Below are positions 10,507 through 33,610 of a stretch of DNA of 64,000 nucleotides, one piece after another (within the stretch, counting starts at the first letter, position 1; every line of letters starts with the position of its first letter). Source of the stretch: Undibacterium sp. KW1 (GTDB taxonomy: Bacteria > Pseudomonadota > Gammaproteobacteria > Burkholderiales > Burkholderiaceae_D); the NCBI RefSeq assembly GCF_009937955.1, contig NZ_AP018439.1:1922001-1986000 (forward strand), written 5' to 3'. The notes under the pieces are model-generated. The model saw nothing but the letters and a program-made list of their open reading frames with translations. It did not search any database and was not told the origin of the DNA. The translations under genes and the position numbers were made by a program.

Positions 10507-10941
10507 TCAGAACAGCACTAGCCCTTCATAGGGCTTGATTTTCAAACTGTCGAGCCTTGATTGCAAATCACCGACATGCAATTCCAGCTTGTGGCCGTCA
10601 GGATCAAGCAGGTAAAGCGAATCACCTTCGCTTTTATTGATTTTCCATAGCGTCAATTTGCCTGCATCTGCCATTTGCTTAAAAATGGCAAAGGACGCAA
10701 GCTTCACAGAAAATGCAGTGTAGGTGTATTCAGAGGGAACGCTGGTACGGCAATTCTGGTCCAGCGAGAGGCAAATCCAGTCGTTGCCAGCTTGCAGATA
10801 AGCACCGTTTTTCCAACGGGCGACTGGTCTCAAACCCAGTACATCTACATAAAAGCGAAAAGAGCGCTCAAGGTCAGCCACCGAGAGGGTAATATGATTC
10901 AAGCCCATGACAGCAGCCACAGGCTTGTTCAAATCAGGCAT
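10507..10941 (-). CDS. FosA-like glutathione transferase (VOC fold) with altered metal site
   Basis: A 144-residue vicinal-oxygen-chelate protein strongly resembling fosfomycin resistance FosA: MGLNHITLSVADLERS, WICLS, WKINKSEGDSLYLLDPDG and HVGDLQSRL. FosA is a Mn/K-dependent glutathione transferase. In Pseudomonas FosA the metal ligands are His7, His64 and Glu110. Here the equivalents are His16, Tyr74 (in EYTYTAF, where FosA has DYTHYAF) and Glu120, so one histidine ligand is replaced. Fosfomycin resistance should therefore not be assumed. About ten extra N-terminal residues are present, and no clear ribosome site precedes the start. Confidence 0.85.
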   Translation of the reverse strand: MPDLNKPVAAVMGLNHITLSVADLERSFRFYVDVLGLRPVARWKNGAYLQAGNDWICLSLDQNCRTSVPSEYTYTAFSVKLASFAIFKQMADAGKLTLWKINKSEGDSLYLLDPDGHKLELHVGDLQSRLDSLKIKPYEGLVLF

Positions 10942-10968
10942 GCTGATTGTTGAAAGTGCAAAGGGCGA

Positions 10969-11325
10969 TTAAACGCCCAGCAATTCGACTTCAAATATCA
11001 GGGTTGCATTGCCAGGGATAACACCACCAGCGCCGCGTGGGCCGTAACCGAGGCTGGAAGGGATAGTCAGCAGACGGGTGCCGCCCACTTTCATGCCTTG
11101 AACGCCTTCATCCCAGCCTTTGATCACATGACCAGCACCCAATGGGAAAGAAAATGGCTGACCACGGTCTTTGCTGGAGTCAAACTTCTTGCCTGCACTA
11201 CCGTCAGGGTTTTGCAGCCAGCCTGTGTAGTGAACATCGACATGGTTACCAGCGACGGCTTCCGCGCCTTCGCCGATAATTTTGTCTTCATATTGCAAAC
11301 CACTGACTGTTGTAATAGTACTCAT
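10969..11325 (-). CDS. FKBP-type peptidyl-prolyl cis-trans isomerase
   Basis: A single-domain, soluble FKBP of 118 residues without a signal peptide, catalysing cis-trans isomerisation at X-Pro bonds. The core VDVHYTGWLQNPDGSAGKKFDSSKDRG is recognisable (VHYTGWL, FDSS), as are VIKGWDEGVQGM and the C-terminal IPGNATLIFEVELL. Length matches bacterial MIP/FklB-like single domains. AAAGGA lies before the ATG at 11325. It is the first gene of a short leftward pair with the FosA-like gene. Confidence 0.95.
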   Translation of the reverse strand: MSTITTVSGLQYEDKIIGEGAEAVAGNHVDVHYTGWLQNPDGSAGKKFDSSKDRGQPFSFPLGAGHVIKGWDEGVQGMKVGGTRLLTIPSSLGYGPRGAGGVIPGNATLIFEVELLGV

Positions 11326-11720
11326 TATTTTTTTCCTTTATTCCGCGTTTGTCACGCTACAAAATCGTTGCTGGTATTTGATTCCAGTTATGCTGTTTTC
11401 AAGTCCGTATATCGTGTTCCCTGATATTTTTGTTGCTTGCTTTGTAGTGCGATGCAGGCAATTTTATAGGGAAGCATGTTAAATGCCGACGAAAACTCAC
11501 TGAAATCAGCATCTCTGATCTAAAAAAGCTGGCGCAATTGTAGAGCAAAAGAAAAGATTTTGGTCACTCAGCTTTAGGTTCTTGTTCTGGCAGCAATAGA
11601 TTCTGGCTTGATTTTGGACAAATTAGGTGAAAAATCTGAAAAACAATGAAAGGAAAGCTCTTTCCTTATTGTCATGCGCTGTAAAATGCCAGTTCGATTT
11701 ATTTTTTTGCGGTCTTTTTC
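11326..11720. other. Divergent intergenic region between FKBP and YVTN genes
   Basis: 395 bp with no credible gene. It holds the FKBP promoter (leftward) and that of the propeller gene (rightward). The one clear structure is the inverted repeat at 11643-11672, described separately. A TAAAAT hexamer at 11682-11687 could be the -10 box of the rightward gene. Confidence 0.5.
11643..11672. promoter_or_regulatory. Inverted repeat upstream of the YVTN propeller gene
   Basis: Arms AAGGAAAG (11650-11657) and CTTTCCTT (11660-11667) are perfectly complementary around a 2-nt centre. The outer bases ACAAT and ATTGT extend the pairing with a 2-nt bulge. It lies just upstream of a candidate -10 box at 11682 and 49 bp before the start at 11721. 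This could be an operator or a 5' hairpin; no T-tract follows, so it is not a terminator. Confidence 0.5.
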
Positions 11721-12695
11721 ATGCGTAGTCGTATCTTGTTGTCGTCTTTGGCGTTTTCTTTGGTTTCCGCATTCTCTGCATTTTCTGCACAGGCCAATGT
11801 GGTCGTGGTGCTCAATTCGCGCGATGCCACTGTGAGTCTGCTTGATCAGGCCACTTATAAAGAAATCAGCACCTTTCCTGTAGGCAAGGAACCCCATCAT
11901 TTGATGGCCACCCCAGACAACAAATCCCTGATCGTGGCAAATGCGGTGGGTAATGAACTGGTATTTCTTGATCCCAAGACTGGTCAGATACAACGCCGCA
12001 TGAAGGATATTGCTGACCCTTACCAGATTGGCTTTTCTCCAGACCAGAAGTGGTTTATCTCTAACTCCCTGCGCCTCGACCGTGTCGATTTCTATAAGTT
12101 TGACGGCCAGGAAATGAAGCTGGTACAACGTGTACCACTGGCGAAATTGCCTAGCCACATGGCTTTTGATGCAGCCAGCACGACGGTTTTTATCACCCAG
12201 CAGGGCAGTGACCAGATTTCTGCGATTGATCTGGCGACTCAAAAAATCAAATGGACTATCCCGGTGGGCAAGCTGCCTGCAGGCATTTCCATGACACCTG
12301 ATGATAAATACTTACTGGTCGGCATCATGGGCAGCAATTATGTTGAAGTCATCGATTGGCGCACACAAAAAACCGTCAAGAAAATCAAGGCAGGTGAGGG
12401 TACGCATAACTTCCGTGCTCTGGGTGACAAGCGTCATATTTTTGTCTCCAACCGCACTTCCAACGAAATCAATATCCTTGACCAGCAGACACTGGAAATT
12501 GTCGGCTCTATTCCCGTCCCAGGCGGTCCTGACTGTATGGAAGTCAGCGAAGATGGCAAAACCCTGTGGGCCACCCTGCGCTGGATCAAGAAAGTGGCTG
12601 TCATTGATATTGCCAGCCGCAAGGTCATCAAGCTGATCCCGGTTGGCCGTTCCCCGCATGGCGTGTTCTTTGCCAATCGTGCCGGCAATATGTAA
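11721..12695 (+). CDS. Periplasmic YVTN/YncE-type beta-propeller protein
   Basis: A 324-residue exported protein. The signal peptide spans roughly residues 1-25 (cleavage after SAQA). About seven repeats of the YVTN/cytochrome-cd1-like propeller follow, each with patterns such as VVVVLNSRDATVSLLD, HHLMATPDNKSLIVAN and IFVSNRTSNEINILD. These proteins bind DNA or metal or act as scaffolds; no enzyme activity can be read from the sequence. The start has no obvious ribosome site. It overlaps the next gene by 53 bp, which implies coupling with the deacetylase. Confidence 0.85.
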   Translation: MRSRILLSSLAFSLVSAFSAFSAQANVVVVLNSRDATVSLLDQATYKEISTFPVGKEPHHLMATPDNKSLIVANAVGNELVFLDPKTGQIQRRMKDIADPYQIGFSPDQKWFISNSLRLDRVDFYKFDGQEMKLVQRVPLAKLPSHMAFDAASTTVFITQQGSDQISAIDLATQKIKWTIPVGKLPAGISMTPDDKYLLVGIMGSNYVEVIDWRTQKTVKKIKAGEGTHNFRALGDKRHIFVSNRTSNEINILDQQTLEIVGSIPVPGGPDCMEVSEDGKTLWATLRWIKKVAVIDIASRKVIKLIPVGRSPHGVFFANRAGNM

Positions 12696-13494
12696 ATTGC
12701 AGTGGCCTGCACATGTGGCCGTTGTGTCCATGGTGGCCATGCTGTGCTCGCCTGCGGTGATTGCTGCGACTGCAGCGGGCAACTGCAAGGGAAGCATCTA
12801 CCTGACTTTTGATACCGGCAGCCAGTCGCAGGCAGAATTGATTGCTGCGACCCTGCGCCGTCATCAAATCAAGGCGACTTTTTTCCTGGCGAATGAAAAG
12901 ACCGTGCAAGGCGACTATTCGCTGGACATGAGCTGGTCACCCTACTGGAAAAAACTGGCAGAAGAAGGCCATGCTTTTGGTACTCACACTTTTGATCATG
13001 TCTATGTTGTCGGCGATTTGCCCGATGGCCATATCACCGTCAAACCGCAGTTTGGTGCGCAAGCTGGCCAGACCCTGCAATGGACAGCAAAAGAATATTG
13101 CCAGGAGCTGCGCCGTGTCGATCAGCGCTTCTTTGCCCTGACGGGCAAAAAGCTGGATCCGCTCTGGCGCGCGCCAGGTGGCAAGCTCACACCTAATTTG
13201 TTGAAAGCCGGGCAGGCTTGTGGCTACATGCATGTAGGCTGGTCACCAGCCGGGTTTTCTGGCGATGAATTGTCCAGCGAAAAATTCAGCAACCCCATGT
13301 TGCTCAGACGTGCTCTCGACAAACTCAGGGATGGCGATATTTTCATGGCACATCTGGGTATCTGGTCACGCAAACAGGCCTGGGCGCCAGAAAACCTGGA
13401 GCCATTACTTAGCGGCCTTGAGCAAAAATCCTTTTGTTTTGCTACTCTACGCGAACACCCCGCTTATCAAAATTTAAACCAGCAGAAAAAATAA
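12643..13494 (+). CDS. Polysaccharide deacetylase (CE4/NodB) family protein
   Basis: NodB-homology domain protein, probably exported and acting on a cell-surface polysaccharide. Motif 1 is YLTFDTGSQ (residues 53-61); the usual TFDD has its second, metal-binding Asp replaced by Thr58. Motif 2 HTFDH keeps both metal histidines, and motif 3 is WRAPGG. The start is uncertain: ATG 12643 and 12658 lie inside the propeller gene, while TTG 12697 directly follows its stop and would give a signal-like N-terminus ending in PAVIAATA. The stop overlaps the next start by one base (TAATG). The neighbours suggest an envelope-modification group. Confidence 0.8.
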   Translation: MAVPRMACSLPIVPAICKLQWPAHVAVVSMVAMLCSPAVIAATAAGNCKGSIYLTFDTGSQSQAELIAATLRRHQIKATFFLANEKTVQGDYSLDMSWSPYWKKLAEEGHAFGTHTFDHVYVVGDLPDGHITVKPQFGAQAGQTLQWTAKEYCQELRRVDQRFFALTGKKLDPLWRAPGGKLTPNLLKAGQACGYMHVGWSPAGFSGDELSSEKFSNPMLLRRALDKLRDGDIFMAHLGIWSRKQAWAPENLEPLLSGLEQKSFCFATLREHPAYQNLNQQKK

Positions 13495-14474
13495 TGACTA
13501 TTTCCGATCTGTTCACAAATCTGCAAGCCTGGATTTTTGAAACGATAGTACAGCCCGCCATGTTTAACCTGGGCCTGGGTGAGTTTGTGGAAGACTCCTA
13601 TGAAGGCGTCGAATGGTTCATGCTCGGCGTTTTGCAATTGATCGTGCTGTTCATCATCTTGCGCCCGCTGGAATCATGGATGCCCGTGCATGAAATCAAG
13701 AACCGCTATGCACGCTGGAATGATTTCATCTATACCGCCTTGCACAGACTAGGGGCGTTTTCCATCCCGGTGTTTTTTGTGCTTGACCCCTTGCTGGATC
13801 AACTCACGGCCCTGCTGCACCTGCAAGGCGTGAACCCCTTCAACCTGGAAAACATCTGGCCAGGCATGTTGCAATATCCGGTTCTGCTGTTTTTGGTGTA
13901 TCTGGTGGTGCTGGACTTTTTTGACTACTGGTATCACCGTGCCGAGCACCAGTTCAACTGGTGGTGGGCATTACACAGCCTGCACCATAGCCAGCGCGAT
14001 ATGAATTTGTGGAGTGATAACCGCAATCACCTGCTCGATGATTTTATCCGCGATATTTATATGGGTTTGATTGCAATTGTGATTGGCGTAGAGCCTGGAC
14101 AATATGTCATGCTGGTCATGGCATCACAAATGCTGCAAAGCCTGCAACATGCCAATGTACGCATACATTTTGGCCGTATAGGTGAATACCTGCTGGTATC
14201 CCCACGTTATCATCGTACCCATCATGCCATAGGCATAGGGCACGAAACTCATGGCAAGGGCACACTTGGCGGGCATAACTTTGCGGTGTTGCTCCCCATC
14301 TGGGATGTATTGTTTGGTACCGCCCTGTTCGCCAAAGAATTTGCGCTGACCGGCATACGTGACCAGTTGCCCGCCCCGGAAGGCAGCGCACGCAACTATG
14401 GCGAAGGATTCTGGTCACAGCAATGGCTGGGTTTAAAGCGTATGTTTGGATTTGACAAGGAAAAACAATCATGA
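13494..14474 (+). CDS. Sterol desaturase/fatty acid hydroxylase family protein
   Basis: A 326-residue membrane di-iron enzyme of the fatty acid hydroxylase superfamily. The three histidine clusters are present: HRAEH, HSLHHSQRDMN, and HRTHH followed by GHETHGKGTLGGHN. At least four hydrophobic segments precede and separate them. ATG at 13494 overlaps the deacetylase stop (TAATG), so an upstream in-frame ATG at 13434 is rejected. Family members hydroxylate or desaturate lipids such as fatty acids, sterols or carotenoids. The lipid substrate is not determinable. Confidence 0.88.
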   Translation: MTISDLFTNLQAWIFETIVQPAMFNLGLGEFVEDSYEGVEWFMLGVLQLIVLFIILRPLESWMPVHEIKNRYARWNDFIYTALHRLGAFSIPVFFVLDPLLDQLTALLHLQGVNPFNLENIWPGMLQYPVLLFLVYLVVLDFFDYWYHRAEHQFNWWWALHSLHHSQRDMNLWSDNRNHLLDDFIRDIYMGLIAIVIGVEPGQYVMLVMASQMLQSLQHANVRIHFGRIGEYLLVSPRYHRTHHAIGIGHETHGKGTLGGHNFAVLLPIWDVLFGTALFAKEFALTGIRDQLPAPEGSARNYGEGFWSQQWLGLKRMFGFDKEKQS

Positions 14475-21143: not shown

Positions 21144-22220
21144 GGCATTCATGAAGGCCTTGCGTATCTGGCGGCCGCATTTGACTGATTCCACATAAGC
21201 CCCGGCTGCCTTATCGTGGCGCGACAGAATGCCATAGTATTTCCTGTCAGGGCTGACCCATGGGTAGAAACCCCATTTGCCCGGGCTGGAGTACGCATCA
21301 ATACTGCCATTGCCTTTTTCTGATTCTACCCAGTGGTTGTAAGAGTAAGTCCAGGGTTCATTCATCAGCAATATGGGCGAGAACACGACCTTGCCGGGGC
21401 AGACAGAAGGCAGGGCACAGACTGCCTCATCACCCAGGTAGCTGCCTATCACCAATTCCTGCTTCATGATCTTTTTCAGGAATAGCGCATAGTCGGTGGC
21501 CGTACCCATCATGCCGCCTGCCATTAGCGGATCAAGCGCAGCCATGTTGAAACCCTTGCTCAGGCCTATGGTGTTCTGGTATTCCGTATCCAGCTGGTTT
21601 GCCGTGAAATTGCCCAGGCCAAGGTCCTTGACGGCCAGCTTTTGGTCATGGCCGCTGTCGTAATCAAATTTGTTGATGGTGTTCTGGTTGGGCTGTTCGG
21701 TATTGTCGCCCATGCCTGCCGAGTAGCAGGCGGAGACATTTGTTGTACCAGCACAGGCATCTTCATTGAAGCCGGTATAACCTGACATAAAGCGCAAGCC
21801 ATCCTTCAGTGTGTTGTTGCTGCGTACCTGGTTGATGCCTTTCTTTTCCAGCACGTAGGCGCCAAATATCCATTTCGAGGCAGAGGCAATATTGAAGTAA
21901 GTGTTTGATTTAACGCTGCCAGCGCCTTGCGAAGCAGAGACTATGGGAGCATTGTCGGTGGCATTGCCGATTTCCCAGTAAAAATCGCCCAGCTTGTCGG
22001 TGGTGCACATGGGGTCTGTGCTTGCAGTATTCTTTGCTGCCGCGATGGCAGCGGTAAGGCGGATAGTAGAATTGGTAGCACTGGCCGAAACGGGTGGTAC
22101 AGCGTCACTTGTAGTGCCAGGACTGCCAGGGCTACGAGGGTTACCATCGCCACAGGCACTCAGCAAGCTGGCTGCAGCCGCCATGGTGGCAAGGCTCAGC
22201 ACGGAAGCAGGATAGTTCAT
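21138..22220 (-). CDS. Serine hydrolase lipoprotein with beta-lactamase-like fold
   Basis: A 360-residue exported lipoprotein: the signal peptide ends in the lipobox LLSAC (Cys about residue 23). A class C beta-lactamase/DD-peptidase-like domain is suggested by NIASASKWIFGAYVLEK (SxxK motif SASK) and by SYNHW further on. Several cysteines (for example CTTDKLGD, CAGTTNVSACY, CALPSVCPG) suggest disulfides. The start at 22220 has GGAGAT just upstream; a longer in-frame start is rejected. It is divergent from the two-component system, which could regulate it. Substrate unknown. Confidence 0.75.
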   Translation of the reverse strand: MNYPASVLSLATMAAAASLLSACGDGNPRSPGSPGTTSDAVPPVSASATNSTIRLTAAIAAAKNTASTDPMCTTDKLGDFYWEIGNATDNAPIVSASQGAGSVKSNTYFNIASASKWIFGAYVLEKKGINQVRSNNTLKDGLRFMSGYTGFNEDACAGTTNVSACYSAGMGDNTEQPNQNTINKFDYDSGHDQKLAVKDLGLGNFTANQLDTEYQNTIGLSKGFNMAALDPLMAGGMMGTATDYALFLKKIMKQELVIGSYLGDEAVCALPSVCPGKVVFSPILLMNEPWTYSYNHWVESEKGNGSIDAYSSPGKWGFYPWVSPDRKYYGILSRHDKAAGAYVESVKCGRQIRKAFMNAL

Positions 22221-22370
22221 GTTATCTCCAGTAGGGAACAGATAATGGACAGGCCCGCTTGTCAGATCGTGAGGTGCAGGCCCGCTGTCAGAAACTGTAA
22301 ACATGAATCCTGTAATTTTGATGGAAGAGTTTCTCGTTCACCGCAATATGGCAAAATGAAGGAGTAATCT

Positions 22371-23081
22371 TTGTTACCACATGTTTCAAACTCCATGAAT
22401 CCTGCCACTACCGTCCTGCTTGTAGAAGATGACCCCATGATCGCCCGTACCTTGAGCATGGGCTTGCGCTATGAGGGTTTTGAACTCAGCCATGCAGGCT
22501 GCATCGCTATCGCCATGAACTTACTGGAGCAGCAGGCCTTCGAGTTGATATTGCTGGATGTCGGTTTGCCTGATGGTGACGGCATCAGCCTGTGCAGGGC
22601 TCTGCGTGCATTGCACCCGGCAACGCCGATATTGATGTTGTCTGCCAGGGTTGATGAAAGCGCCGTGGTCGCCAGCATGGAAGGCGGTGCCGACGATTAC
22701 ATACGCAAGCCCTGTGGGCTGCGGGAACTTAGTGCCCGTATGCGCCGTCTATTGGTCAGGGCACAGCCAGCCAGGGAGCCAAGGGCGGTCATCAGCTTTG
22801 GTGATATCGAGATGGATGTACAGCGCCGCAATGCCAGTGCCAGAGGAGTAGCGCTACAATTGGGCAAGAAAGAATATGATGTGCTGATGTTGCTGGTGCG
22901 TGCCAACGGTGACGCCATCACCCGTGAGCAGATACTGAGTCAGTTTGAGGACAGTAATATCATTTACGACCGCACCATTGATTCCCACCTTAGCCATTTG
23001 CGCCGTAAATTAAAGGATGCCGGTGCGACTGAGCGTATCGTCGCCATTTATGGCATAGGTTATAAACTGGAGCATACATGA
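22371..23081 (+). CDS. OmpR-family response regulator
   Basis: A receiver domain (acidic VEDD, phospho-acceptor in LILLDVGLPDGDG, Lys in DYIRKPCGLREL) is followed by an OmpR/PhoB winged helix ending SHLSHLRRKLKDAGATERI and YGIGYKLE. AAGGAG at 22359-22364 lies six bases before TTG 22371, so the TTG is taken as the start over ATG 22395; the TTG adds eight residues. The stop overlaps the histidine-kinase start (ATGA), the usual arrangement of a two-component pair. It is divergent from the serine hydrolase lipoprotein. Confidence 0.93.
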   Translation: MLPHVSNSMNPATTVLLVEDDPMIARTLSMGLRYEGFELSHAGCIAIAMNLLEQQAFELILLDVGLPDGDGISLCRALRALHPATPILMLSARVDESAVVASMEGGADDYIRKPCGLRELSARMRRLLVRAQPAREPRAVISFGDIEMDVQRRNASARGVALQLGKKEYDVLMLLVRANGDAITREQILSQFEDSNIIYDRTIDSHLSHLRRKLKDAGATERIVAIYGIGYKLEHT

Positions 23082-24511
23082 GTCGTTCATTATGGTTGCG
23101 GTTTTTTGCGATCAGCGTATTTTTTGCATTGCTGCTGAGTCTGTTCTATCTGTGGATGATCAGGGAAGTAACCACGCGCCCCGGGGATGAAGTACAGCGC
23201 AGCATGTATCTGTTTATTGCCCGCATTGTGGAAGGGCATGATTACGCCGAGGGGCTGCGTCTTGTACAGACTTACCGCAGCGAGTCACCGGCGATCCCGC
23301 TGGAAATGTGGATAGTGAATGCAGACAATCAGATACTCGCGAGCAGTCCGGCAGATGCCGTTCCACCAGCCGCGCTTTTGCAGCGTACCAAACCAGGAGT
23401 AATCCATGAGGTAGCAGCACGTGGGAGATTTTTTTCAGGGACGGCTGCGTCTGCCATTGTGCGTTTGCAGTCAGACCAGCCCAGTTATTTGCTGATACAC
23501 AATCCGGGTACACCTGCACGTGGCGCATTTTTTACCATGGCGACCTTGTTCGTGGTGACACTTGTTACTGCAATTTTGCTGGGCCTGTTATTGCTGACGC
23601 TATATCTGCGTATGCGGTCGGCAGAAGCGCGGCGGGTGATTCAAGACATGGAGGCTGGTAACCTGAGCGCACGTTTTACCTCTGGCCGGCTGGATGCCAT
23701 AGGTGGGCTGATGCAGCATTTCAATGCCATGGCCAATGAAATACAGCGCTTGGTCTTGCGACTACAAGCCATAGAAAAAACCAGGCGCGAACTATTGCAA
23801 GAGCTGGGCCATGATTTGCGCACGCCATTGACCAGTTTGCGTACCGCGATTGATACCCTGTCTGTGCATGGTGACGCGATGGAACAGCAGGAACGTGAAG
23901 AGTTTTTTACTGTCGTCAGTAATGAACTGGATTATTTCACCAAGCTCATCGATGACTTGTTCTTTATCGCCAATATTGATGAACCGCGCTACCGTAACCA
24001 GGCCAGCAGTGTCGATTTACGCGACTTGCTTAAAACCGAAACAGGCCATGCCGTGCACATGCAACAGCAGGCAGATGAGGCCATAGAATTTGTGCTGCAG
24101 ATAGATGCTGACTGTGAGCAAGGTAGTCAGCACGGCGGGTTTATTACCGGTGATACTTACCTGATATCCAGGCTTTTGCGCAATGTTTTTGAGAATGCTG
24201 GCAGATATGCGCAAAGCAAAGTCCGGGTACGCCTGTCTGCCATTGATACAGTGCTGGTATTGACGATTGAGGATGACGGTCCCGGTTTGTCTGCCGATGC
24301 CATGTTCCGCTTTGGCCAGAGGCGCGACACTCGCCTGCTGTTCCAGGGTTTGCCAAGCAGGCAGGCTGGAATATCGCTGGGCCTGGGTTCAGTCATTATC
24401 AAGTCTATAGTCGAATTGCACGGCGGCCATTACGAGATAGCTAATGGCGAAGCCCGAAGTGAGTACCCCGGTGCACGCCTGGGATTGACTTTTCCCCGGC
24501 GATATTCCTGA
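23078..24511 (+). CDS. Sensor histidine kinase
   Basis: A 477-residue inner-membrane kinase with transmembrane segments at about residues 8-28 and 150-172, a periplasmic sensor between them, and a HAMP region around MEAGNLSARFTSGRLDAIGG. HisKA has its phospho-His in ELGHDLRTPLTSLRTAID. The HATPase domain shows the N-box LLRNVFENAGRYAQ and DDGPGLS. The G-boxes QAGISLGLGSVIIKSIVE are followed by a final strand. It is translationally coupled to the response regulator. The signal is unknown. Confidence 0.93.
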   Translation: MSRSLWLRFFAISVFFALLLSLFYLWMIREVTTRPGDEVQRSMYLFIARIVEGHDYAEGLRLVQTYRSESPAIPLEMWIVNADNQILASSPADAVPPAALLQRTKPGVIHEVAARGRFFSGTAASAIVRLQSDQPSYLLIHNPGTPARGAFFTMATLFVVTLVTAILLGLLLLTLYLRMRSAEARRVIQDMEAGNLSARFTSGRLDAIGGLMQHFNAMANEIQRLVLRLQAIEKTRRELLQELGHDLRTPLTSLRTAIDTLSVHGDAMEQQEREEFFTVVSNELDYFTKLIDDLFFIANIDEPRYRNQASSVDLRDLLKTETGHAVHMQQQADEAIEFVLQIDADCEQGSQHGGFITGDTYLISRLLRNVFENAGRYAQSKVRVRLSAIDTVLVLTIEDDGPGLSADAMFRFGQRRDTRLLFQGLPSRQAGISLGLGSVIIKSIVELHGGHYEIANGEARSEYPGARLGLTFPRRYS

Positions 24512-24543
24512 TCAGCGAATTAAGCCTGAGTTTGGTACTGTTC

Positions 24544-24885
24544 TCAGTACTGGTGGCTCATGGATTGTTCTTTGCTTTTGGGGCGTGACTTCGCGAGCGT
24601 GGATTTTAATTGCGAATCCGTGATACGGAAGGTGTCCCTTTTGTCGCCCATCAGAGCGCGCAATTCCTTGATCGTGAGACCACTGATCTCATGCATGCTG
24701 ATCATTAGCGACGCACCTATAGGCAAGCGCAAGTGGCGGATTTTGCTGATCACCGGTGGTGCCACGTCCAGCATTTTTGCCAGTGCCGCATCATTTTTCA
24801 GATGCAGGCGCCTGATGAGCGTATCAAACAGGTGATTGGGGTTGTACTTGACCTTGTCGGACTGCAGATTGAGCAGGCTTATCAT
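24544..24885 (-). CDS. Small HTH (XRE/Cro-like) DNA-binding protein
   Basis: A 113-residue cytosolic protein. The central segment NDAALAKMLDVAPPVISKIRHLRLPIGASL reads as a Cro-type helix-turn-helix (AALAKMLDVAPPVISKIR, residues about 33-50), followed by a helix ISGLTIKELRALMG. The basic C-terminal tail ends in SMSHQY. The start at 24885 is fixed by GGAGAAAT directly upstream; the longer in-frame start at 24984 is rejected. Small regulators of this build are widespread in Oxalobacteraceae. The target is unknown. Confidence 0.75.
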   Translation of the reverse strand: MISLLNLQSDKVKYNPNHLFDTLIRRLHLKNDAALAKMLDVAPPVISKIRHLRLPIGASLMISMHEISGLTIKELRALMGDKRDTFRITDSQLKSTLAKSRPKSKEQSMSHQY

Positions 24886-25001
24886 TATTTCTCCTTGGCG
24901 TTTCTTGAAAAATTGAAACGATGTCAAAGAGCTTAATAAAGATATAAAGTTTTGTATGTGCGATAACTCACATAGCGCCCACATACTGCTTGAAAGCAGA
25001 T

Positions 25002-26105
25002 TCAGTGAGTGCTGTTTTTCAAGGCTTGCGCCAGTAGCTGCAAAGCCTGCCTCAGTTTTTCGTCATCCATGGCAAGCAGATTATCGCCTACATACCATTC
25101 AAACATGCACTGCCCGGGTAAGGCAGTGTGTACGGCATTATTGAATAGCCATATCCCGTGTTCTTGCGCGATGCGGTTGCGTATGGTGATAGCAGTATCC
25201 CGGTCTATCGGCAGATACAGGTGCAGCATATTGCATTGTGGTGCGGCGGGATTGGTTTTGAATTCGGGATACGCGCGCAATTCTTCAAACAACCATAGGG
25301 TGCGGGCAAAGCAGGCGGGCAGGGCAGCCAGCCTTAGATCAAACTGCATCGCAGCAGCGACGACATAGGGGCTGCGGCGGAATACACTGCCACCTTGCCT
25401 GTGCATCCAGACGCGTGCTTTGGCAATGAAATCGGCACTGCCCAGCAGCATGGCACCACCCAGGCCAGCTATACCTTTGTAGAACGAAACATAGACTGAA
25501 TCAAAACCTGCACTTACTTCTGCCAGGCTTCGGCCATAACCGGCGGCAGCTTCCCACAGGCGCGCTCCATCCATATGCAGGTGTATATCCTGCTGGCGAC
25601 AATGGGTTTTGATGGCGTTCAACTCTTCCCAGTCAGGTAACTGCCCGCCTATCTCGCGCATGGGTAATTCATACTGTGCCGCAGCGATTTTCTCGGGCTG
25701 GGCCTGCAAATTCTTCAGTGTCCAGGGGCGATATGGGTTGCCAACCTGCACGGCCTTGAAATGATCGAGCAACTGAAAATTGCTTTTTTCATGGACCAGG
25801 ATATGCGAGCTCGCATGCAAGGCGACCAGCGGGCTGCCCCTTTCTTCGCAAGCCAGACGCAAGGCTGTAACCTGGGTCAACGTGCCGGTGATACAGAACA
25901 GACCTGCTTCCATGCCCAATAAAGCAGCGATCTTGCTTTCGAAAGATTGCACCAGTTCACCCTCACCATAGGTGTCATGTTGCACCTGATGCTGCTCTGA
26001 CCAGGCTGCCATGCGTGCAAAGGTTTCTGCAGGCGTGATGGCACGATGGCCAGGCAAAGTGGTATGACAATTCTGGCGCAGTGCGCTTATTTCAGCGTCG
26101 GTCAC
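25002..26105 (-). CDS. Threonine aldolase family (beta-eliminating lyase) PLP enzyme
   Basis: A 367-residue fold-type I PLP enzyme of the low-specificity L-threonine aldolase family, which cleaves threonine or allo-threonine to glycine and acetaldehyde. Landmarks are HMDGARLWEAAAGYG (PLP-ring Asp) and SVYVSFYKGIAGLGGAML, whose Lys forms the Schiff base. The start is taken as GTG at 26105, because GGAG lies six bases before it. The longer TTG 26120 has no ribosome site and contains that GGAG within its own coding sequence. A close relative could act on another beta-hydroxy amino acid. Confidence 0.85.
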   Translation of the reverse strand: MTDAEISALRQNCHTTLPGHRAITPAETFARMAAWSEQHQVQHDTYGEGELVQSFESKIAALLGMEAGLFCITGTLTQVTALRLACEERGSPLVALHASSHILVHEKSNFQLLDHFKAVQVGNPYRPWTLKNLQAQPEKIAAAQYELPMREIGGQLPDWEELNAIKTHCRQQDIHLHMDGARLWEAAAGYGRSLAEVSAGFDSVYVSFYKGIAGLGGAMLLGSADFIAKARVWMHRQGGSVFRRSPYVVAAAMQFDLRLAALPACFARTLWLFEELRAYPEFKTNPAAPQCNMLHLYLPIDRDTAITIRNRIAQEHGIWLFNNAVHTALPGQCMFEWYVGDNLLAMDDEKLRQALQLLAQALKNSTH

Positions 26106-26210
26106 AAGGTTCTCCAGCAATTTGTTTCAATCAGGCATCAGTATGCCATGTCAGTACCATCACTTGTACGCTAAAATCGTGGGATATATTTACTTCAACT
26201 GGTGTAACGC

Positions 26211-27920
26211 ATGTCATCACATACAGACCATACTACCGCCTTCATCACACCCTATGAAGCCGGTAACCAGAACCAGACGACCACCTGGCAAGCCTGCATA
26301 CAGTTTTACCAGGACCTGGCAGCGCAATTTCCAAACATCCTGCAATTCAGCCAGATCGGTGTTTCTGATAATGGCAAGCCCATTCACGCCGGTATCGTGA
26401 CTGTCGATGGCGTATTTGAGCGCGAGCGCATCAAACAGGAACAACGCACGGTATTTTTCAATAATAATGGCATACACCCAGGTGAGCCTGAGGGTATCGA
26501 TGCCTGTATGGCGTTGGTACGCGATTTTTGTATCCAGCCTGAACGCCTCGCGGCGCTGGGTAAAACGGTATTCCTGTTCATCCCCGTGTATAACGTTGAT
26601 GGCAGCCTGAACCGTCAGGATACTTCACGTGTCAATCAGGATGGGCCAGAGCAGTTTGGTTTCCGTGGTAACAGCCTGCACCTTGACCTGAACCGCGACT
26701 TCATCAAGTGTGATAGCGAAAATGCCCAGGTCTTCAACCGCTTTTTCAGCGAATGGAGCCCGGACGTCATGGTTGATACGCACACCTCAAATGGTGCTGA
26801 CTACCATTACACCATGACCCTGATACAAACTCAGGCAGACAAGCTGGGCCATGGTCTCGGCCCCTACTTGCGCAACACCATGTTGCCTGCCATTTATACA
26901 GAAATGCAGGAGCGTGGCTGGCCGACTTGTCCCTATGTGAATCCCGTCAAGGACAGCCCTGATCATGGCATAGAAGATTTCCTGGAAACACCACGGTTTT
27001 CTACCGGTTATGCAGCCCTGCATCACACCATAGGTTTCATGCCTGAAACCCATATGCTGAAGCCTTTTGCCGACCGCTATGCCTCCATGCGCGCCCTGGT
27101 GGAAACAGTGCTCGCATTCACGGTTGCCCATGGCGCAGAGATACAGGCGCTACGTGCGCAAGCACGTGAGGCTGCCAGCCAGCAACCGCAGGCAGCAGTG
27201 CATTGGGTGGCCGACCATGGACAGCCTTCCAGCTTCATGTTCAAGGGTTACCAGGCCGTGTATAGCCCCAGCGTGCTGGGTAATTACACCCGCCTGTCTT
27301 ATGACCGTAGCCAGCCGTGGGAAAAAGCCATCCCTTATTACGATCACTTTGTCGCTGATATCACAGTCACCCAAGCCAGGGCTTATCTGATACCGCAAGC
27401 CTGGCGCGCAGTCATAGAGCGCCTGCAATGGAATGGCGTCCAGATGCAAAGGCTGGAAGCCGATACCAGCTTGCAGACCGAGGTTTATCACATACAGTCA
27501 GTGCAATCACGTCCGCATGCCTATGAAGGCCATATGTTCCATGACGATGTGCAGTTGCTGCCGACCAGTGCTAGCATGATTGCCAATGCAGGTGATTATC
27601 TCGTCCCACTGGATCAGCCAGCGGCACGCTATATAATCGAAACCCTGGAGCCCCAGGCGCATGACAGTTTTTTTCGCTGGGGCTTTTTCAATAGCGTACT
27701 GGAAAAGAAAGAAGCTTATTCAGATTATGTCTTTGAAGACACCGCCACCGATATCCTCAACACCGAGCCAGAAGTCAAGGCAGCCTTTGAGCAATGGAAG
27801 CAGGAAAACCCAGGTTTACTCAGCGACCAGCAAGCGGTTCTCGATTTTATTTTTAGCCGTTGTGCAAGATTCAAGGAACCAGAATGGCGCCGCTACCCTG
27901 TGTTGCGCATAATGCATTGA
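26211..27920 (+). CDS. M14-family zinc carboxypeptidase-like peptidase
   Basis: A 569-residue metallopeptidase with no signal peptide. The zinc site HxxE is in NNGIHPGEPEG (His89, Glu92), the third ligand is probably the His in MVDTHTSNGADYH near residue 190, and FIPVYNVDGS and LDLNRDFIK are M14-like surroundings. It is longer than classical carboxypeptidases, with an extra C-terminal domain after about residue 330. It ends about 100 bp before the first borosin precursor on the same strand. Any role in peptide trimming there is only a hypothesis. Confidence 0.85.
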   Translation: MSSHTDHTTAFITPYEAGNQNQTTTWQACIQFYQDLAAQFPNILQFSQIGVSDNGKPIHAGIVTVDGVFERERIKQEQRTVFFNNNGIHPGEPEGIDACMALVRDFCIQPERLAALGKTVFLFIPVYNVDGSLNRQDTSRVNQDGPEQFGFRGNSLHLDLNRDFIKCDSENAQVFNRFFSEWSPDVMVDTHTSNGADYHYTMTLIQTQADKLGHGLGPYLRNTMLPAIYTEMQERGWPTCPYVNPVKDSPDHGIEDFLETPRFSTGYAALHHTIGFMPETHMLKPFADRYASMRALVETVLAFTVAHGAEIQALRAQAREAASQQPQAAVHWVADHGQPSSFMFKGYQAVYSPSVLGNYTRLSYDRSQPWEKAIPYYDHFVADITVTQARAYLIPQAWRAVIERLQWNGVQMQRLEADTSLQTEVYHIQSVQSRPHAYEGHMFHDDVQLLPTSASMIANAGDYLVPLDQPAARYIIETLEPQAHDSFFRWGFFNSVLEKKEAYSDYVFEDTATDILNTEPEVKAAFEQWKQENPGLLSDQQAVLDFIFSRCARFKEPEWRRYPVLRIMH

Positions 27921-28022: not shown

Positions 28023-28244
28023 ATGTCTAAATTGCTTGAATATTTGAATACACTGGATAAAGATGCGGATGCGTTGACTTCGCACAGAAGCGACCCTGGT
28101 GCTGCAATGACTAATTTTGGTTTGACAGCGGAAGAACAGTCAGCGGTTTTGTCTGGCGACAAGGCTGCTGTTGCCGGGATTGTTGGGATTTCGGCAGATG
28201 AATTGCCAGCGATTGATTCCATTGAAACTACGCCCAATCCATAA
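28023..28244 (+). CDS. Split-borosin-type RiPP precursor peptide 1
   Basis: A 73-residue peptide preceded by AAAGGTT. Residues 1-52 form a small helical LigA-like leader (MSKLLEYLNTLDKDADALTS, then FGLTAEEQSAVLSGD), the type of borosin-binding domain seen in Shewanella SonA. The candidate core is the tail after about residue 53, GIVGISADELPAIDSIETTPNP being longer than a single motif: key pieces are VGIS and AIDSIET. It is paralogous to the peptide at 30132: both begin MSKLL(E/D)YLN(T/A)LD and share FGL, EQ and AID(S/T)xET. Which residues are methylated is unknown. Confidence 0.8.
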   Translation: MSKLLEYLNTLDKDADALTSHRSDPGAAMTNFGLTAEEQSAVLSGDKAAVAGIVGISADELPAIDSIETTPNP

Positions 28245-28263
28245 GCAATATTTAGTGTATCTG

Positions 28264-30024
28264 ATGAACTTCCGGCACTTTAAAAGTACTGTATTAGCCA
28301 TATTACTTTTTGCCGGAAGTGCGGTGCCATTGCTTGCGTACGGTGCAGATGAGAAAACGATAGACGAGCTGTTTGCGCAGGCCTCAAGGGAGATCAAAAT
28401 TTCTCCTGAAAAGACTTGGGAAACTCTGAGCAAGCTTGAGGAATTTCGTGCGTCGTTTAGCATCACGCAAAAAAACCGGCACCTGCTTCTTAGTGCGTCT
28501 GCCTTGGGTTATCGAGGGCGGCACAAAGAGCGGGTTGAACTGGTACGTGCAAACGTTGAGCAGGTTGCTGACCCTGATTATCGCGTTCGTCTCTTATATC
28601 AGCTTTCAGCGGGCTATACCCAGCTAGGTGAATTTGAAAATGCTCTGTTGGCGATGAATCAGGGTATTTTACTGTTACCTAAGCTCACCAATCAAATTGC
28701 AAAGATGGATACCTTGCAGGCCGCGATTACGCTACACAATTCTTTGCGTGCGTATGATGAAGCATTTGCTTATTCGGAGCGCTTAGTTGAAATCGGCAAA
28801 GAAGACGAGAGTACAGGTGTGAAGTGCATTGGTATTGCTAACCAGGTAGAAATTAATTTGCTACGTGGAGAGCGACAACGTGCCCGCTCCATACTACCTG
28901 AAGCAATCAAAATATGTGAAGATCGTGGTGCAACAGTAATTGTGCAAATATTGCGCTCACTTGCTGCTGTTGATTTGATTGATTCGGGAAATTACCTCCA
29001 AGGGAAAGGTGCTGGAATTCAGCTATTGGCAGATTTTTTGGAAGTAAACAAAAGTTCTGACTATCGTACTCAACTTGAGGAAGCATTGGCCAGAGCGTTC
29101 TTAAACTCTGGCAATCTTGATCAGGCTGAGCGTTATGGACTACTGGCATATCAGCATGCAAAAAGTGGTAATGCTGTTCAGTTAATGGAGAAAACTTCAG
29201 AAACGATGGCCAGTATTAAACGTGCGCAATCACAGTTTGCTGCTGCACTTGAGTACTATGAGGCTGCACTGGTTCTGAAAAACCGTGTACTTGACGATCA
29301 GTTACATAAAAATCTTGCTTACCAGCGTGTGAAATTTGATGCGCAAGACAAAGCTATACAATTAAGTTTGCTGGAACAGAAAAATAAAATTCTTGCGGTT
29401 GAGCGAGAGCTGGAAAAAAGAAATAATCAAAATCTTATATTGGCAATTGCGTTGGTAGCAGTAATTTTAGTGTTGTTGTCACTCTGGCTGATCAAAACCT
29501 TGCAGCAAAAAAATCAATTTCGCCAGTTTTCGCAAACAGACGGTTTGACCCAGGCAGCTAATCGCATGCATTTCATCAGCTTTGCCAATGAAGCATTCAA
29601 ATTACGTACAGGTAGCGTCAGCATCATCCTGTTTGACATGGATTTATTTAAAAATATTAATGACACGTATGGTCATGCTACGGGTGATTGGGTATTGAAA
29701 AACGTCAGTGAAACCGTCAAGACACATTTGCGCAAGGTTGATTTATTTGGGCGGCTGGGTGGTGAAGAGTTTGGTATTTGCATGCCAGACTCAAGCCAGG
29801 CCTCAGCCCTGCAATTGGCAGAGCGCTGCCGTATGGCAATCACAATGATAGATACAGAACCTAGTGGTCATAAATTCTCACTATCTGCCAGTTTTGGTGT
29901 AGCGACAGTAGATGGGAATGGACTCAAGAATTTTGATGAAACCTTGGAAGCGGCTGACAAGGCACTTTATATCTCCAAAGCCGAAGGTAGAAACTGCGTT
30001 AGTGTCTTCAGGCAAACACCATAG
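28264..30024 (+). CDS. TPR-containing membrane diguanylate cyclase (GGDEF)
   Basis: Exported/membrane protein of about 586 residues. It has a signal peptide (LLFAGSAVPLLAYGA, about residues 12-27) and a large periplasmic TPR-like alpha-solenoid (about residues 35-380). A coiled-coil stretch is followed by one transmembrane helix (LILAIALVAVILVLLSLWL) and a cytosolic GGDEF domain. The active site is GGEEF in FGRLGGEEFGICMP; the product-inhibition site RKVD lies five residues before it. It should make c-di-GMP in response to a periplasmic cue. It lies 19 bp after precursor 1 and 107 bp before precursor 2, an unusual place for such an enzyme. The coding sequence looks more AT-rich than its surroundings by eye. 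Confidence 0.88.
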   Translation: MNFRHFKSTVLAILLFAGSAVPLLAYGADEKTIDELFAQASREIKISPEKTWETLSKLEEFRASFSITQKNRHLLLSASALGYRGRHKERVELVRANVEQVADPDYRVRLLYQLSAGYTQLGEFENALLAMNQGILLLPKLTNQIAKMDTLQAAITLHNSLRAYDEAFAYSERLVEIGKEDESTGVKCIGIANQVEINLLRGERQRARSILPEAIKICEDRGATVIVQILRSLAAVDLIDSGNYLQGKGAGIQLLADFLEVNKSSDYRTQLEEALARAFLNSGNLDQAERYGLLAYQHAKSGNAVQLMEKTSETMASIKRAQSQFAAALEYYEAALVLKNRVLDDQLHKNLAYQRVKFDAQDKAIQLSLLEQKNKILAVERELEKRNNQNLILAIALVAVILVLLSLWLIKTLQQKNQFRQFSQTDGLTQAANRMHFISFANEAFKLRTGSVSIILFDMDLFKNINDTYGHATGDWVLKNVSETVKTHLRKVDLFGRLGGEEFGICMPDSSQASALQLAERCRMAITMIDTEPSGHKFSLSASFGVATVDGNGLKNFDETLEAADKALYISKAEGRNCVSVFRQTP

Positions 30025-30131
30025 ATTTTCTGATGATAATTTGCTAAAAATAGTTTTGCTTTAGTTAATGCTTGAGCTTAGAATCATTCTTGGTATTACC
30101 CCTGAAAGTTTTGCCAACCAAGGAGAAAAGT

Positions 30132-30404
30132 ATGTCTAAGTTGTTAGATTATCTGAATGCTCTTGATACTAGTGCTGCTCTTATTCAGGCGCACAAAAAC
30201 GATGCACTACAGGCAGCACGTGATTTTGGTTTATCCGTAGATGAACAGGTTCTTATCCTGCATCAGGACAGACGTGAAATATCCGCTTTCCTGGATTTGC
30301 CGTTCAGGGATTTTGATGCTATTGATACGACAGAAACTTACTTTGAATCATGGGAAATTGCCAGTGACGAGCAAGCTCCATTTGAGCAAGAAGTTATCGC
30401 TTAA
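30132..30404 (+). CDS. Split-borosin-type RiPP precursor peptide 2
   Basis: A 90-residue peptide with AAGGAG at good spacing before ATG 30132. Leader residues 1-54 align with precursor 1 (MSKLLDYLNALD, DFGLSVDEQ), again a LigA-like borosin-binding domain. The tail is longer and different: it has FDAIDTTETYFESWEIASDE and ends EQEVIA. The aromatic- and acid-rich tail is the candidate core. It is the nearer of the two precursors to the methyltransferase (147 bp upstream) and therefore the likelier cognate substrate. No protease cleavage site can be assigned. Confidence 0.82.
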   Translation: MSKLLDYLNALDTSAALIQAHKNDALQAARDFGLSVDEQVLILHQDRREISAFLDLPFRDFDAIDTTETYFESWEIASDEQAPFEQEVIA

Positions 30405-30419
30405 TACTTGTTTATGAAA

Positions 30420-30456
30420 AACACTTTTTGCAAACGCAATGAAGATGAAAAGTGTT
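30420..30456 (+). terminator. Hairpin just after precursor 2
   Basis: Nine-base arms AACACTTTT (30420-30428) and AAAAGTGTT (30448-30456) with a 19-nt loop. No T-tract follows, so by itself it is more likely an mRNA-stabilising or pausing hairpin than a terminator. It is the first of two hairpins before the methyltransferase. Confidence 0.45.
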
Positions 30457-30474
30457 GGTAGTAACGCTATGTGT

Positions 30475-30511
30475 AGAGCCGGATCATCATTGTTTCTGGC
30501 TCTATTTTTTT
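30475..30511 (+). terminator. Probable (partial) terminator between precursor 2 and the methyltransferase
   Basis: Stem AGAGCC (30475-30480) with GGCTCT (30498-30503), extended by GGA/TCT with one mismatch, and followed by A and seven T residues. It could end most transcripts after the precursor and let a minority read into the enzyme gene, giving more peptide than enzyme. This is inferred. Confidence 0.6.
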
Positions 30512-30550
30512 ATTTGCAACTTCTTTTACGATATTCACTCCTAAAAATCT

Positions 30551-31378
30551 ATGACAATTCAAAAGCAAGGATCACTCGTCTGTGTGGGTACTGGTATGCG
30601 TATGGGGGGGCAATTGACACCAATCGCGCAAAGCTATATCGAAACTTTTGATATCGTCGTCGCTGCTGTGCCGAATATCTTCACACGCAAATGGTTGCAG
30701 GGTGTCGCAAAAGAATATATCTGTCTGAATTCCTATTATGAAGACATGAATATCGAGGGCAAAAATCGCCGCGATACCTACAGACGTATGGCTGATACTA
30801 TCCTTGCAGAGATGCGCAAGGGAAAACGTGTTTGCGCGGCCTTTTATGGTCACCCCGGAATTTTCGCTTGTATTTCTCACATGGCAATTGCAGACGCTAG
30901 GGCAGAGGGGTATCAGGCACATATGGAACCTGGTATTTCAGCTCTCGATTGCCTGGTTGCAGACCTGGGCATAGACCCTGGTACCTATGGCATGCAATCG
31001 ATGGAATCAACGCAATTCATGATTTACCACCGCACTATTGATACCACGGCACTGCTGATACTGTGGCAGCCAGGTATTGCAGGTGAGCTGGCATTGAAAA
31101 AACTTGAAACCAATGAAGAGTATTTGCAGATATTGGTCAACAAGCTTGCACGTAGCTATTCATTGGATCATGAAGTGATTTTATATGAAGCTGCGACTGA
31201 TCCTTTGGAAAAAACACGTATAGACAAGATACGTCTTGGGGACTTACCGCGGATGACACTCAAGCAAATCACTACTCTGGTGATACCCCCATCCAAATCG
31301 CTGGAAAGAGACCAGTCAATTATCGATGAGCTCAATGCAATCGCTGCACAGAGAGGGCAGGTCCAGCAAGCAGCTTGA
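30551..31378 (+). CDS. Split borosin peptide backbone alpha-N-methyltransferase (TP-methylase fold)
   Basis: A 275-residue SAM-dependent methylase of the tetrapyrrole-methylase fold, very like Shewanella SonM and the methylase domain of fungal OphMA. SAM-site and catalytic blocks are SLVCVGTG (residues 8-15), YYEDMNIEGKNRRDTY (62-77, with the Tyr/Arg residues needed for amide methylation in the family), FYGHPGIFACISHMA (98-112), MEPGISALDCLVADLG (125-140) and LDHEVILYEA. The absence of a fused core shows the split type. It probably methylates backbone amides of precursor 2, perhaps also of precursor 1. A run of seven G lies at codons 18-20. The ribosome site is weak. Confidence 0.9.
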   Translation: MTIQKQGSLVCVGTGMRMGGQLTPIAQSYIETFDIVVAAVPNIFTRKWLQGVAKEYICLNSYYEDMNIEGKNRRDTYRRMADTILAEMRKGKRVCAAFYGHPGIFACISHMAIADARAEGYQAHMEPGISALDCLVADLGIDPGTYGMQSMESTQFMIYHRTIDTTALLILWQPGIAGELALKKLETNEEYLQILVNKLARSYSLDHEVILYEAATDPLEKTRIDKIRLGDLPRMTLKQITTLVIPPSKSLERDQSIIDELNAIAAQRGQVQQAA

Positions 31379-31621: not shown

Positions 31622-32020
31622 ATGAAAAAAATGATCAAAAATACATTGCTGGGTCTGGCTTTGGCCGGTGGTTTGTCGGTAGCTTGCGCTGAAGGCGTAG
31701 ATACCTCTGTTGATGGCATTTTCAATGCGCTGACAACGACAAGTAATTTGCAGGCTACGGTTGATAACCTGGTTGCCAGCGGTGCCAATCCACAATCCAT
31801 CGTTTCTGTTGCTGCCGCAGCTGGTATTCCTCTGGATACCGTCAAGGATTTGCAGGTATGCGTGAACTCTGCTGCACCTGATGCAACAGTGCTCAGTGCT
31901 TCTTGCATGAGACAGCGTAGCCTGGTCACTGCCTATGCGGCAGGCGTGAATGATCCTATGAAATACCTGCCTGCAACTGCTGCTGGCAAGCGTCAAAGCA
32001 AAGAAGTCAAAACGAACTAA
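31622..32020 (+). CDS. Small secreted protein of unknown function
   Basis: A 132-residue protein with a clear signal peptide (MKKMIKNTLLGLALAGGLSVACA, cleavage near residue 23). The mature part is Ala/Val/Thr/Ser-rich: SNLQATVDNLVASGANPQS and SVAAAAGIPLDTVKDL. It has two cysteines in the second half (DLQVCVNS, LSASCMRQ) that may form a disulfide, and a Lys-rich end. GGAGG sits at good spacing before ATG 31622, and a perfect terminator follows. I do not recognise the family. It lies downstream of the borosin genes on the same strand but has its own upstream region, so a link is unproven. Confidence 0.75.
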   Translation: MKKMIKNTLLGLALAGGLSVACAEGVDTSVDGIFNALTTTSNLQATVDNLVASGANPQSIVSVAAAAGIPLDTVKDLQVCVNSAAPDATVLSASCMRQRSLVTAYAAGVNDPMKYLPATAAGKRQSKEVKTN

Positions 32021-33262: not shown

Positions 33263-33610
33263 GATGTTTCTTTCTTGCTTATAAATGCGTAAGCCGTATT
33301 TTAACTTGGCAGCGCGATGGAGGTGTTACCGCCGCATTAAATACCAGACAAGAGCTGCCAGATTATTAAGATATAACGCAGTGAGAGGGGATTTGGGTGA
33401 CAGGTGCTGTGGAATATTTTTAGGCCAAAGATATTATCACGGAGACCCAGAGAGATTCTTTCAAGCGAATGGCAGATGCAAGCAAAAAACGATAGGCGCG
33501 GCCAGATGTTCGCGGCTGAAGCCGCTCCTACAAAATTTGCAAACCGGGCAGGCGCAAAGAATTTCTCTGTGCCCCTCTGTGCAAACTCTGTGTCTCTGTG
33601 TTGAGAGGTT
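33263..33610. other. Intergenic region dominated by a repeat element
   Basis: 348 bp between the small acidic protein and the end of hutC. The right half (33438-33600) is a nested palindromic element described separately. The left half should hold the promoter of the leftward run starting at 33262. No gene is supported. Confidence 0.5.
33438..33600. repeat. Nested palindromic intergenic element with REP-like core and CTCTGTG repeats
   Basis: The centre has a REP-like hairpin GCGGC-TGAA-GCCGC (33512-33525) followed by TCCTACAAA, a form common in many Pseudomonas-type REP sequences. The right flank has four copies of CTCTGTG (33565, 33575, 33586, 33594). The left flank CACGGAGACCCAGAGAGATT is roughly the reverse complement of the right flank, giving an overall inverted repeat of about 160 bp. 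It is non-coding and possibly mobile (MITE/REP class). Confidence 0.6.

Follow-up and report, generated by a model that had tools for sequence, protein, structure and literature searches.

A SonM-type split borosin locus in Undibacterium with a candidate peptide receptor that co-varies with its precursor

Split borosins are common in bacteria and form a natural-product class of largely unknown purpose. For type IV, a paper of 2023 is said, by its title, to report the final natural product of a pathway. The account of the closest described system, the SonM/SonA pair of Shewanella oneidensis, states in the sections used here that no type IV pathway had been tied to such a product as of 2021, and reports residues Y58, R67, Y71 and Y93 as important in the methyltransferase SonM (PMC8429565). 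The legend of Figure 1 in PMC11395268 names a GGDEF domain among borosin types, with type and role unstated in that legend, so a GGDEF neighbour or domain has been noticed before in borosins. In the ComQXPA pherotype locus of Bacillus, according to the part of PMC4408185 drawn on here, secreted ComX acts on ComP, and comQ shows 65–70% identity between clusters in strains with nearly identical gyrA, the trees being incongruent. Here we describe a locus at positions 28023–31378 of a 64,000-nucleotide stretch of the genome of Undibacterium sp. KW1 (contig NZ_AP018439.1, 1,922,001–1,986,000; hereafter the window), in which a SonM-type methyltransferase gene stands with two precursor genes and the gene of a membrane sensor.

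The four genes, all on the + strand, are ordered precursor 1, TPR-TM-GGDEF gene (tetratricopeptide repeats, a transmembrane helix and a GGDEF domain), precursor 2, methyltransferase. In one Undibacterium clade, the sequences reveal matched polymorphism of precursor 1 and of the TPR half of the sensor against conserved flanks. This co-variation suggests that the membrane sensor reads the peptide as a signal.

Components of the locus

The methyltransferase gene (30551–31378) is an ATG open reading frame of 275 codons. It holds the blocks SLVCVGTG, NRRDTY and MEPGIS, which the original prediction, made on this DNA from its letters, had quoted for a backbone N-methyltransferase of the borosin type with a TP-methylase fold, no fused core and a betaproteobacterial host. 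All of this was borne out. The host is an Undibacterium, no core is fused to the enzyme, its residues 7–261 align to PDB chains of SonM with E 1.1e-79, and Pfam TP_methylase scores 69.9 bits (cut-off 27.8). Comparison with SonM and OphMA, on the one hand, and general TP-methylases, on the other, pointed the same way: fungal OphMA-type chains also match strongly (about 1e-41; E 2e-39 to 9e-46), whereas cobalamin and sirohaem models stay far below their cut-offs. The residues Y58, R67, Y71 and Y93 of SonM have identical counterparts in the PDB alignment, positions being counted by eye. No NCBIfam model reached its cut-off on the enzyme, the best being YabN (46.7 of 525 bits). A cobalamin, sirohaem or YabN-type methylase is ruled out by the cut-offs, with cobI_cbiL the best cobalamin model at 19.2 of 163 bits. 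On the sequence evidence, membership in the borosin family is close to certain.

Precursor 1 (pepA, 28023–28244) is a peptide of 73 residues with 34 homologues, composed of a SonA-like leader (residues 1–57) and a short, allele-specific C-terminal core region (residues 58–73, 28194–28241, borders approximate). It matches SonA chains in the PDB with E 2.6e-4. Its model is a five-helix bundle (helices 3–13, 15–23, 25–32, 36–44 and 47–54; predicted local distance difference test score 81.6), and the 16 best PDB fold matches found by Foldseek were all SonA chains, with E of at least 0.07 (not significant by E), probabilities of 0.99–1.00 and best TM to target of 0.86–0.88. Precursor 2 (pepB, 30132–30404), of 90 residues and with 19 homologues, is a paralogue of precursor 1 (38% identity, E 2.3e-9) with a longer acidic tail; it gave no PDB or Pfam match of note, and its binding domain is assigned by paralogy only.

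In an alignment of 47 homologues the leaders are conserved and the C-terminal ends variable, the forms of precursor 1, which mark allele classes, including IDSIETTPNP, LDTIVTLY, IDSVESPY and LDSIEY. The core region of precursor 1, within its approximate borders, is polar and acidic; a hydrophobic core is usual, though not required of all borosin types. An orphan SonA-like precursor lies at 4686–4901 of locus L062 (G004:C17:99500-109000), in whose 9.5 kb no enzyme or sensor was matched; its end, ALDSIEIFPNP, is nearer to the window allele than to precursor 1 of its own genome (LDSIEY).

For the peptides the original prediction fared less evenly. Its expectation of a core sequence unlike that of SonA agrees with the polar, variable end. 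LigA-like helical leaders resembling SonA were also expected: precursor 1 is SonA-like by sequence and model, its score against Pfam LigA (17.4 bits) is below the cut-off of 25.3, and precursor 2 qualifies through paralogy only. Both peptides had been placed directly upstream of the enzyme, which is true of precursor 2, while precursor 1 lies 2.3 kb off with a 586-residue gene between. That gene (28264–30024) fell within the predicted span but was left unnamed. The prediction correctly recognized a split borosin locus with separate precursors and overlooked its central sensor, the place that this sensor keeps beside the enzyme and the co-variation with precursor 1, all of which hint at signalling.

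The sensor gene (28264–30024) starts 19 bp past the end of precursor 1. Its product of 586 residues, the proposed peptide receptor, has a signal-peptide-like start by hydropathy (residues 1–29, 28264–28350), a predicted periplasmic TPR sensor (residues 30–385, 28351–29418), one membrane helix (residues 389–412, 29428–29499; hydropathy peak 3.2) and a predicted cytoplasmic GGDEF domain (29536–30012; Pfam, 130 bits) with a GGEEF motif (29758–29772) and an RxxD motif. The location of the TPR part outside the cytoplasm is predicted from the signal-peptide-like start and the membrane helix. Pfam TPR models score below their cut-offs; the model has helix pairs forming a solenoid, and Rap and NprR are among its fold matches. 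Cys188 and Cys218 are conserved in 70 of 70 aligned sequences. Variability along the protein peaks towards the N-terminus and is low beside the membrane.

An M14 carboxypeptidase (Pfam) is encoded upstream of the locus at 26211–27920. Downstream of the enzyme, 31622–32020 encodes a protein of 132 residues with a signal-like start and no Pfam or NCBIfam family; it is 99% identical to its counterpart in genome G027 and is present in several Undibacterium loci. In L037 (G021:C9), probably a decayed locus, a 35-residue methyltransferase remnant adjoins the conserved M14 gene. No Rfam family, riboswitches included, reached its gathering score in the window, where promoter patterns (12, with 7.6 expected, sd 2.8) and terminator patterns (4, with 3.8 expected, sd 1.4) were uninformative.

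The sensor as neighbour of the enzyme

We surveyed orthologues in 60 genomes, 36 of them Undibacterium, scoring at most 22 candidates per genome. A close orthologue of the sensor occurred in 16 of the 60, always beside the enzyme, and in none of the 42 genomes without the enzyme. Among 19 named loci, a GGDEF protein of the sensor family lies beside the enzyme in 17, from Undibacterium, Rheinheimera, Dyella, Pinirhizobacter, Marinicella, Alkalimonas, Kangiella and others; the two misses are L007, which is cut by a contig end, and L010. Pfam TPR repeats were found in six of seven sensors scanned from these loci (L005, L008, L013, L014, L015 and L019; not L009). In L010 (Dyella silvae) the stretch examined contains no GGDEF sensor; beside the enzyme, at 7299–7835, is an open reading frame without Pfam match in which a signal-peptide-like stretch is followed, by eye, by a precursor-like region, the start codon being uncertain. 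Locus L013 (Marinicella, 5748–13742) has three GGDEF sensors and two precursor-like frames around one methyltransferase, and two of the sensors come, by eye, directly after a precursor-like frame.

A class-wide sample of 369 genomes added eight with the enzyme. The three closest in sequence possess a sensor: L066 and L067 with Pfam TPR, and L065, whose protein is 40% identical to that of L008, with Pfam GGDEF only. A TPR hybrid kinase is preceded by a SonA-like frame in L066 and by a small frame in L067. In the other five (L068 to L072, with methyltransferases of 35–39% identity) the enzyme has no such TPR sensor next to it, so the association appears confined to the SonM-like clade.

The largest set came from the order of genome G413, a different order of the same class, in which 70 of 295 genomes have the enzyme. 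From 69 of these we took 80 loci (one each and 11 second places; the 70th genome is that of L067), some of which may be from the same species as some of the 19 named loci. A related TPR protein lies within 3.5 kb of the enzyme in 78 of the 80, its output being GGDEF, histidine kinase or none. GGDEF proteins within 3 kb account for 58 loci, 57 of them with a protein of at least 450 residues; in L115 the gene is split, a 154-residue GGDEF piece adjoining a 413-residue sensor frame. Per kb there are 0.129 of them within 3 kb of the enzyme and 0.009 beyond 5 kb. With 11 kinase loci (L130, L154, L160, L164, L165, L166, L167, L169, L170, L181 and L182), the enzyme has a GGDEF or kinase sensor in 69 of the 80. 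Pfam finds TPR and kinase domains in ten of these 11 and HisKA only in L130, which is cut by the contig. TPR-only proteins of about 355 residues with signal-like starts, by eye, occur in L124, L132, L134, L135, L140, L141, L145 and L152, one or two proteins of each locus having been checked in Pfam; in L161 the TPR protein is cut by the contig. No TPR sensor was found near the enzyme in L171 and L176.

Near the enzyme there are 67 GGDEF proteins, every one with a Pfam GGDEF match and 48 with a TPR_12 match. The Cys pair is present in 66 of them, the exception being an 807-residue protein of L147 on the opposite strand, and in six of six TPR-only proteins. An ATG frame of 45–140 codons ends at most 60 bp before 49 of the 67 sensors (49 of 57 loci), compared with 16 of 205 control genes; these frames were counted by size and position, homology not being checked one by one. 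In L106 a near-SonA precursor (50 of 57 SonA residues, by eye) ends 0 bp before a GGDEF sensor, which makes it probable that the founding borosin group is arranged likewise. A functional link between enzyme and TPR sensor is very likely.

Other features recurred in the 80-locus set (L103–L182). A GNAT acetyltransferase gene (Pfam in four of four scanned) occurs in 29 loci no further than 1.5 kb from the enzyme, as well as at L017:8789-9307, and may encode a second enzyme that tailors the peptide. L171:600-2516 is a 638-codon frame with the TP-methylase domain mid-protein, a fused architecture without a TPR sensor match. In L176 (G644:C1:199900-219800), two near-identical tandem precursors (10419–11165) stand with a GNAT-like gene and no sensor; L121 of the same genome has one.

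Allelic divergence of precursor 1 and the TPR half

The near relative G027 (locus L049) has the gene order of the window. Four flanking proteins are 97–99% identical between the two and the GGDEF half 99%, whereas precursor 1 and the TPR half are 65% and the enzyme 83% identical. Profiled in 300-bp steps, nucleotide identity is 89–98% over 22201–27900, 80% across most of precursor 1, and 57–64% over 28201–29100, that is, the precursor 1 end and most of the TPR half. It rises to 75 and 84% nearing the membrane helix and to 92–94% in the GGDEF part and precursor 2, falls to 71–78% in most of the enzyme, and is 98% just past it and then 93–96%, with a further dip (76%) at intergenic 33301–33600. 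Synonymous divergence is 0.11–0.25 in the four flanking genes, 0.42 in GGDEF and 0.20 in precursor 2, compared with 1.9 in precursor 1, about 1.2 in the enzyme and saturation in the TPR part. The divergent blocks therefore seem to predate the separation of the two genomes.

Of the loci whose flanks are known, strain TS12 comes closest to the window in precursor 1 (89%) and in the TPR half (86%), its flanking proteins being only 77–89% identical; P0020/P0054, outside that set, is nearer still (95 and 94%). The mosaic is repeated in the pair L002–L004 (flanks 87–98, precursor 64, TPR 69, GGDEF 98 and enzyme 96% identity), and with GGDEF domains 98–99% identical it recurs in window–L049, L002–L004 and P0033–P0034. 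In L047–L048, a pair without exchange, the values are 93 (M14), 91 (precursor), 85 (TPR) and 94% (GGDEF).

Across 12 Undibacterium loci, precursor 1 distance tracks TPR distance (Mantel r 0.70, p 1e-4; partial 0.74) and shows no relation to distance in the GGDEF part of that protein (r −0.07, p 0.68). With all 26 precursor–sensor pairs the partial correlations are 0.49 (p 1e-4) with TPR and 0.01 (p 0.45) with GGDEF. Among the 26 pairs, eight (among the 12, six) were put together from separate protein records by equal length of the longest contig, the others being read from one DNA stretch; L040 and the second L046 sensor, before which no precursor was found, were left out. The trees of the two halves conflict. 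For the TPR half, a group of window, P0020 and L049 is rejected (p-AU, approximately unbiased test, 2e-96), whereas the GGDEF tree places them together with middling support (93/94); conversely, L049, L004 and P0046 are united in the TPR tree (99/96) and rejected as a group for GGDEF (p 1.7e-4). The groups were picked after the identity table had been inspected.

Proposed role, rival explanations and known systems

How the parts would work together, from methylation and cleavage through export and binding to the direction of the switch, we infer as follows. The SonM-type enzyme would bind the five-helix leader and methylate backbone amides of the precursor 1 core, that of precursor 2 probably being methylated likewise. 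A protease would cut off the leader, and the core would leave the cytoplasm by routes for which no gene was found at the locus. In the periplasm the mature peptide would dock on the TPR solenoid encoded directly after precursor 1, and docking would switch the cytoplasmic GGDEF domain, changing cyclic diguanylate (c-di-GMP) and with it the cell's decision for a sessile or a motile life. Allele classes, or pherotypes, of precursor, sensor half and enzyme would exist on otherwise near-identical chromosomes, as in comQXP. Judging from sequence, we lean slightly towards the central element of this scheme, namely that the TPR cyclase binds, as its ligand, the methylated peptide encoded beside it. 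With confidence a little short of even, we also propose that SonM-type split borosins as a class are secreted Gram-negative pheromones, with the precursor gene before an extracytoplasmic TPR receptor of exchangeable output and with pherotypes in Undibacterium.

Several observations weigh against this scheme. The sharp mosaic is seen in one Undibacterium clade only, and in the pair L038–L046 (M14 86%) the GGDEF and TPR halves have diverged alike, 69 and 72%. For 15 loci of SonA type in family f211, taken as Shewanella solely through the near-SonA precursor of L106, partial correlations of the peptide are alike and weak (0.23 with the sensor, 0.27 with GGDEF), so the same mosaic is not clear there. 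All 18 f211 loci give 0.42 (p 4e-4) with the sensor and 0.12 (p 0.19) with GGDEF, and 36 loci outside f211 give 0.50 and 0.22; we put more weight on the Undibacterium set, because distances in the other sets are large and alignments weak. Variable sites of the TPR half are not concentrated in the groove-lining A helices (0.28 vs 0.31, p 0.77), which leaves the idea of a more variable groove unsupported. The Cys pair is absent from 12 of 13 kinase-set proteins (the cut L161 included), only L066 having it. Precursors occur without a sensor nearby in L176 and L062, and the enzyme without one in L010. The precursors lack a signal peptide, and no exporter or dedicated protease was seen kept beside them. 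A borosin precursor is reportedly a substrate of shewasin A in work by Lee et al. of 2023; a pepsin-type protease (PF00026) was not found in the host genome, in a search that had no positive control and is uninformative.

The TPR cyclase might instead regulate the borosin locus in response to another envelope cue, with the peptide an effector (metal-binding, antimicrobial or surface-active) that never contacts it. A pathway regulator alone would yield close linkage, and contact between peptide and sensor is proposed only. We nevertheless consider this unlikely, since an unrelated cue gives its sensor no reason to vary along with precursor 1 when the output half does not, to begin so often right after a small open reading frame, or to be swapped for TPR kinases or TPR-only proteins. 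Somewhat less credible to us is a neutral recombination tract or an old introgression. Linkage alone could give the precursor–TPR correlation, because precursor 1 and the sensor half are adjacent, and a single tract could have transferred the two with no specificity involved; the tract, its synonymous divergence being saturated, looks imported and not fast evolving, and the 15 SonA-type f211 loci are without such a mosaic. What speaks against co-travel by linkage only is the recurrence of the tract in several pairs with GGDEF domains 98–99% identical, and the enzyme as a second divergent block in window–L049, beyond the conserved GGDEF and precursor 2.

The missing signal peptide, the lack of an adjacent exporter or protease and the predicted folding of the leader would also suit an uncleaved precursor acting as intracellular partner of the cyclase, methylation being the switch and not the maturation of a secreted peptide. 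This is improbable given that the allelic half is the part predicted outside the cytoplasm, with its conserved Cys pair. Matched polymorphic pairs and TPR-only variants are likewise consistent with an inter-strain toxin and a TPR protein for matched immunity or self-recognition; we give this slightly less credence again, most partners bearing GGDEF or kinase signalling outputs, for which immunity has no use.

For a peptide signal read by the neighbouring sensor, a conserved, co-varying candidate receptor gives split borosins a concrete, testable role. If true, it would add a peptide-pheromone channel to Gram-negative bacteria, with a ribosomal, backbone-methylated signal leading straight into c-di-GMP; it would also give extracytoplasmic TPR sensors a class of ligands and explain backbone methylation as a means of making signals protease-resistant. 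For genome mining, the hint is to seek a precursor directly ahead of a TPR sensor gene. In the literature searched, outside which key subscription papers lie, no paper paired 'borosin' with 'diguanylate cyclase', a weak indication of novelty; with the same reserve, the accessible literature appears to lack the receptor reading, the exchange of outputs and the pattern of alleles.

The RRNPP peptide receptors (Rap, NprR, PlcR) are cytoplasmic TPR proteins whose peptide is encoded by an adjacent gene. The window shares with them the TPR solenoid, by fold match, proposed to bind the peptide of a neighbouring gene; unlike theirs, its TPR part is predicted to be extracytoplasmic and continues into a membrane helix and a cyclase. 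A TPR domain that restrains the GGDEF domain of the same protein is described for RcbB of Vibrio vulnificus in the portion of PMC12282931 cited here, although RcbB (RcbAB) is predicted to be cytoplasmic and has a second TPR protein as its partner in place of a borosin precursor. With the borosin types of PMC11395268 the locus has GGDEF in common, the receptor idea, exchangeable outputs and allele pattern not being in the parts of that paper examined. Like SonM/SonA, as far as described in those sections of PMC8429565, it has an enzyme of the same family with the same active-site residues and a separate precursor of 70–90 residues with a five-helix binding domain; unlike SonM/SonA, it has two precursors, in the order precursor–sensor–precursor–enzyme, and a polar core region (IDSIETTPNP) in place of SonA-type ends such as SYLIISHGNGD (L106). 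It differs from ComQXPA in its proposed backbone N-methylation as opposed to isoprenylation, in a TPR cyclase as opposed to ComP, and in its communication specificity, which here is only proposed. What the two share, on the passages of PMC4408185 consulted, is a modifying enzyme, a small precursor and a membrane sensor in one locus, together with trees that disagree and strong polymorphism between strains that are otherwise closely related.

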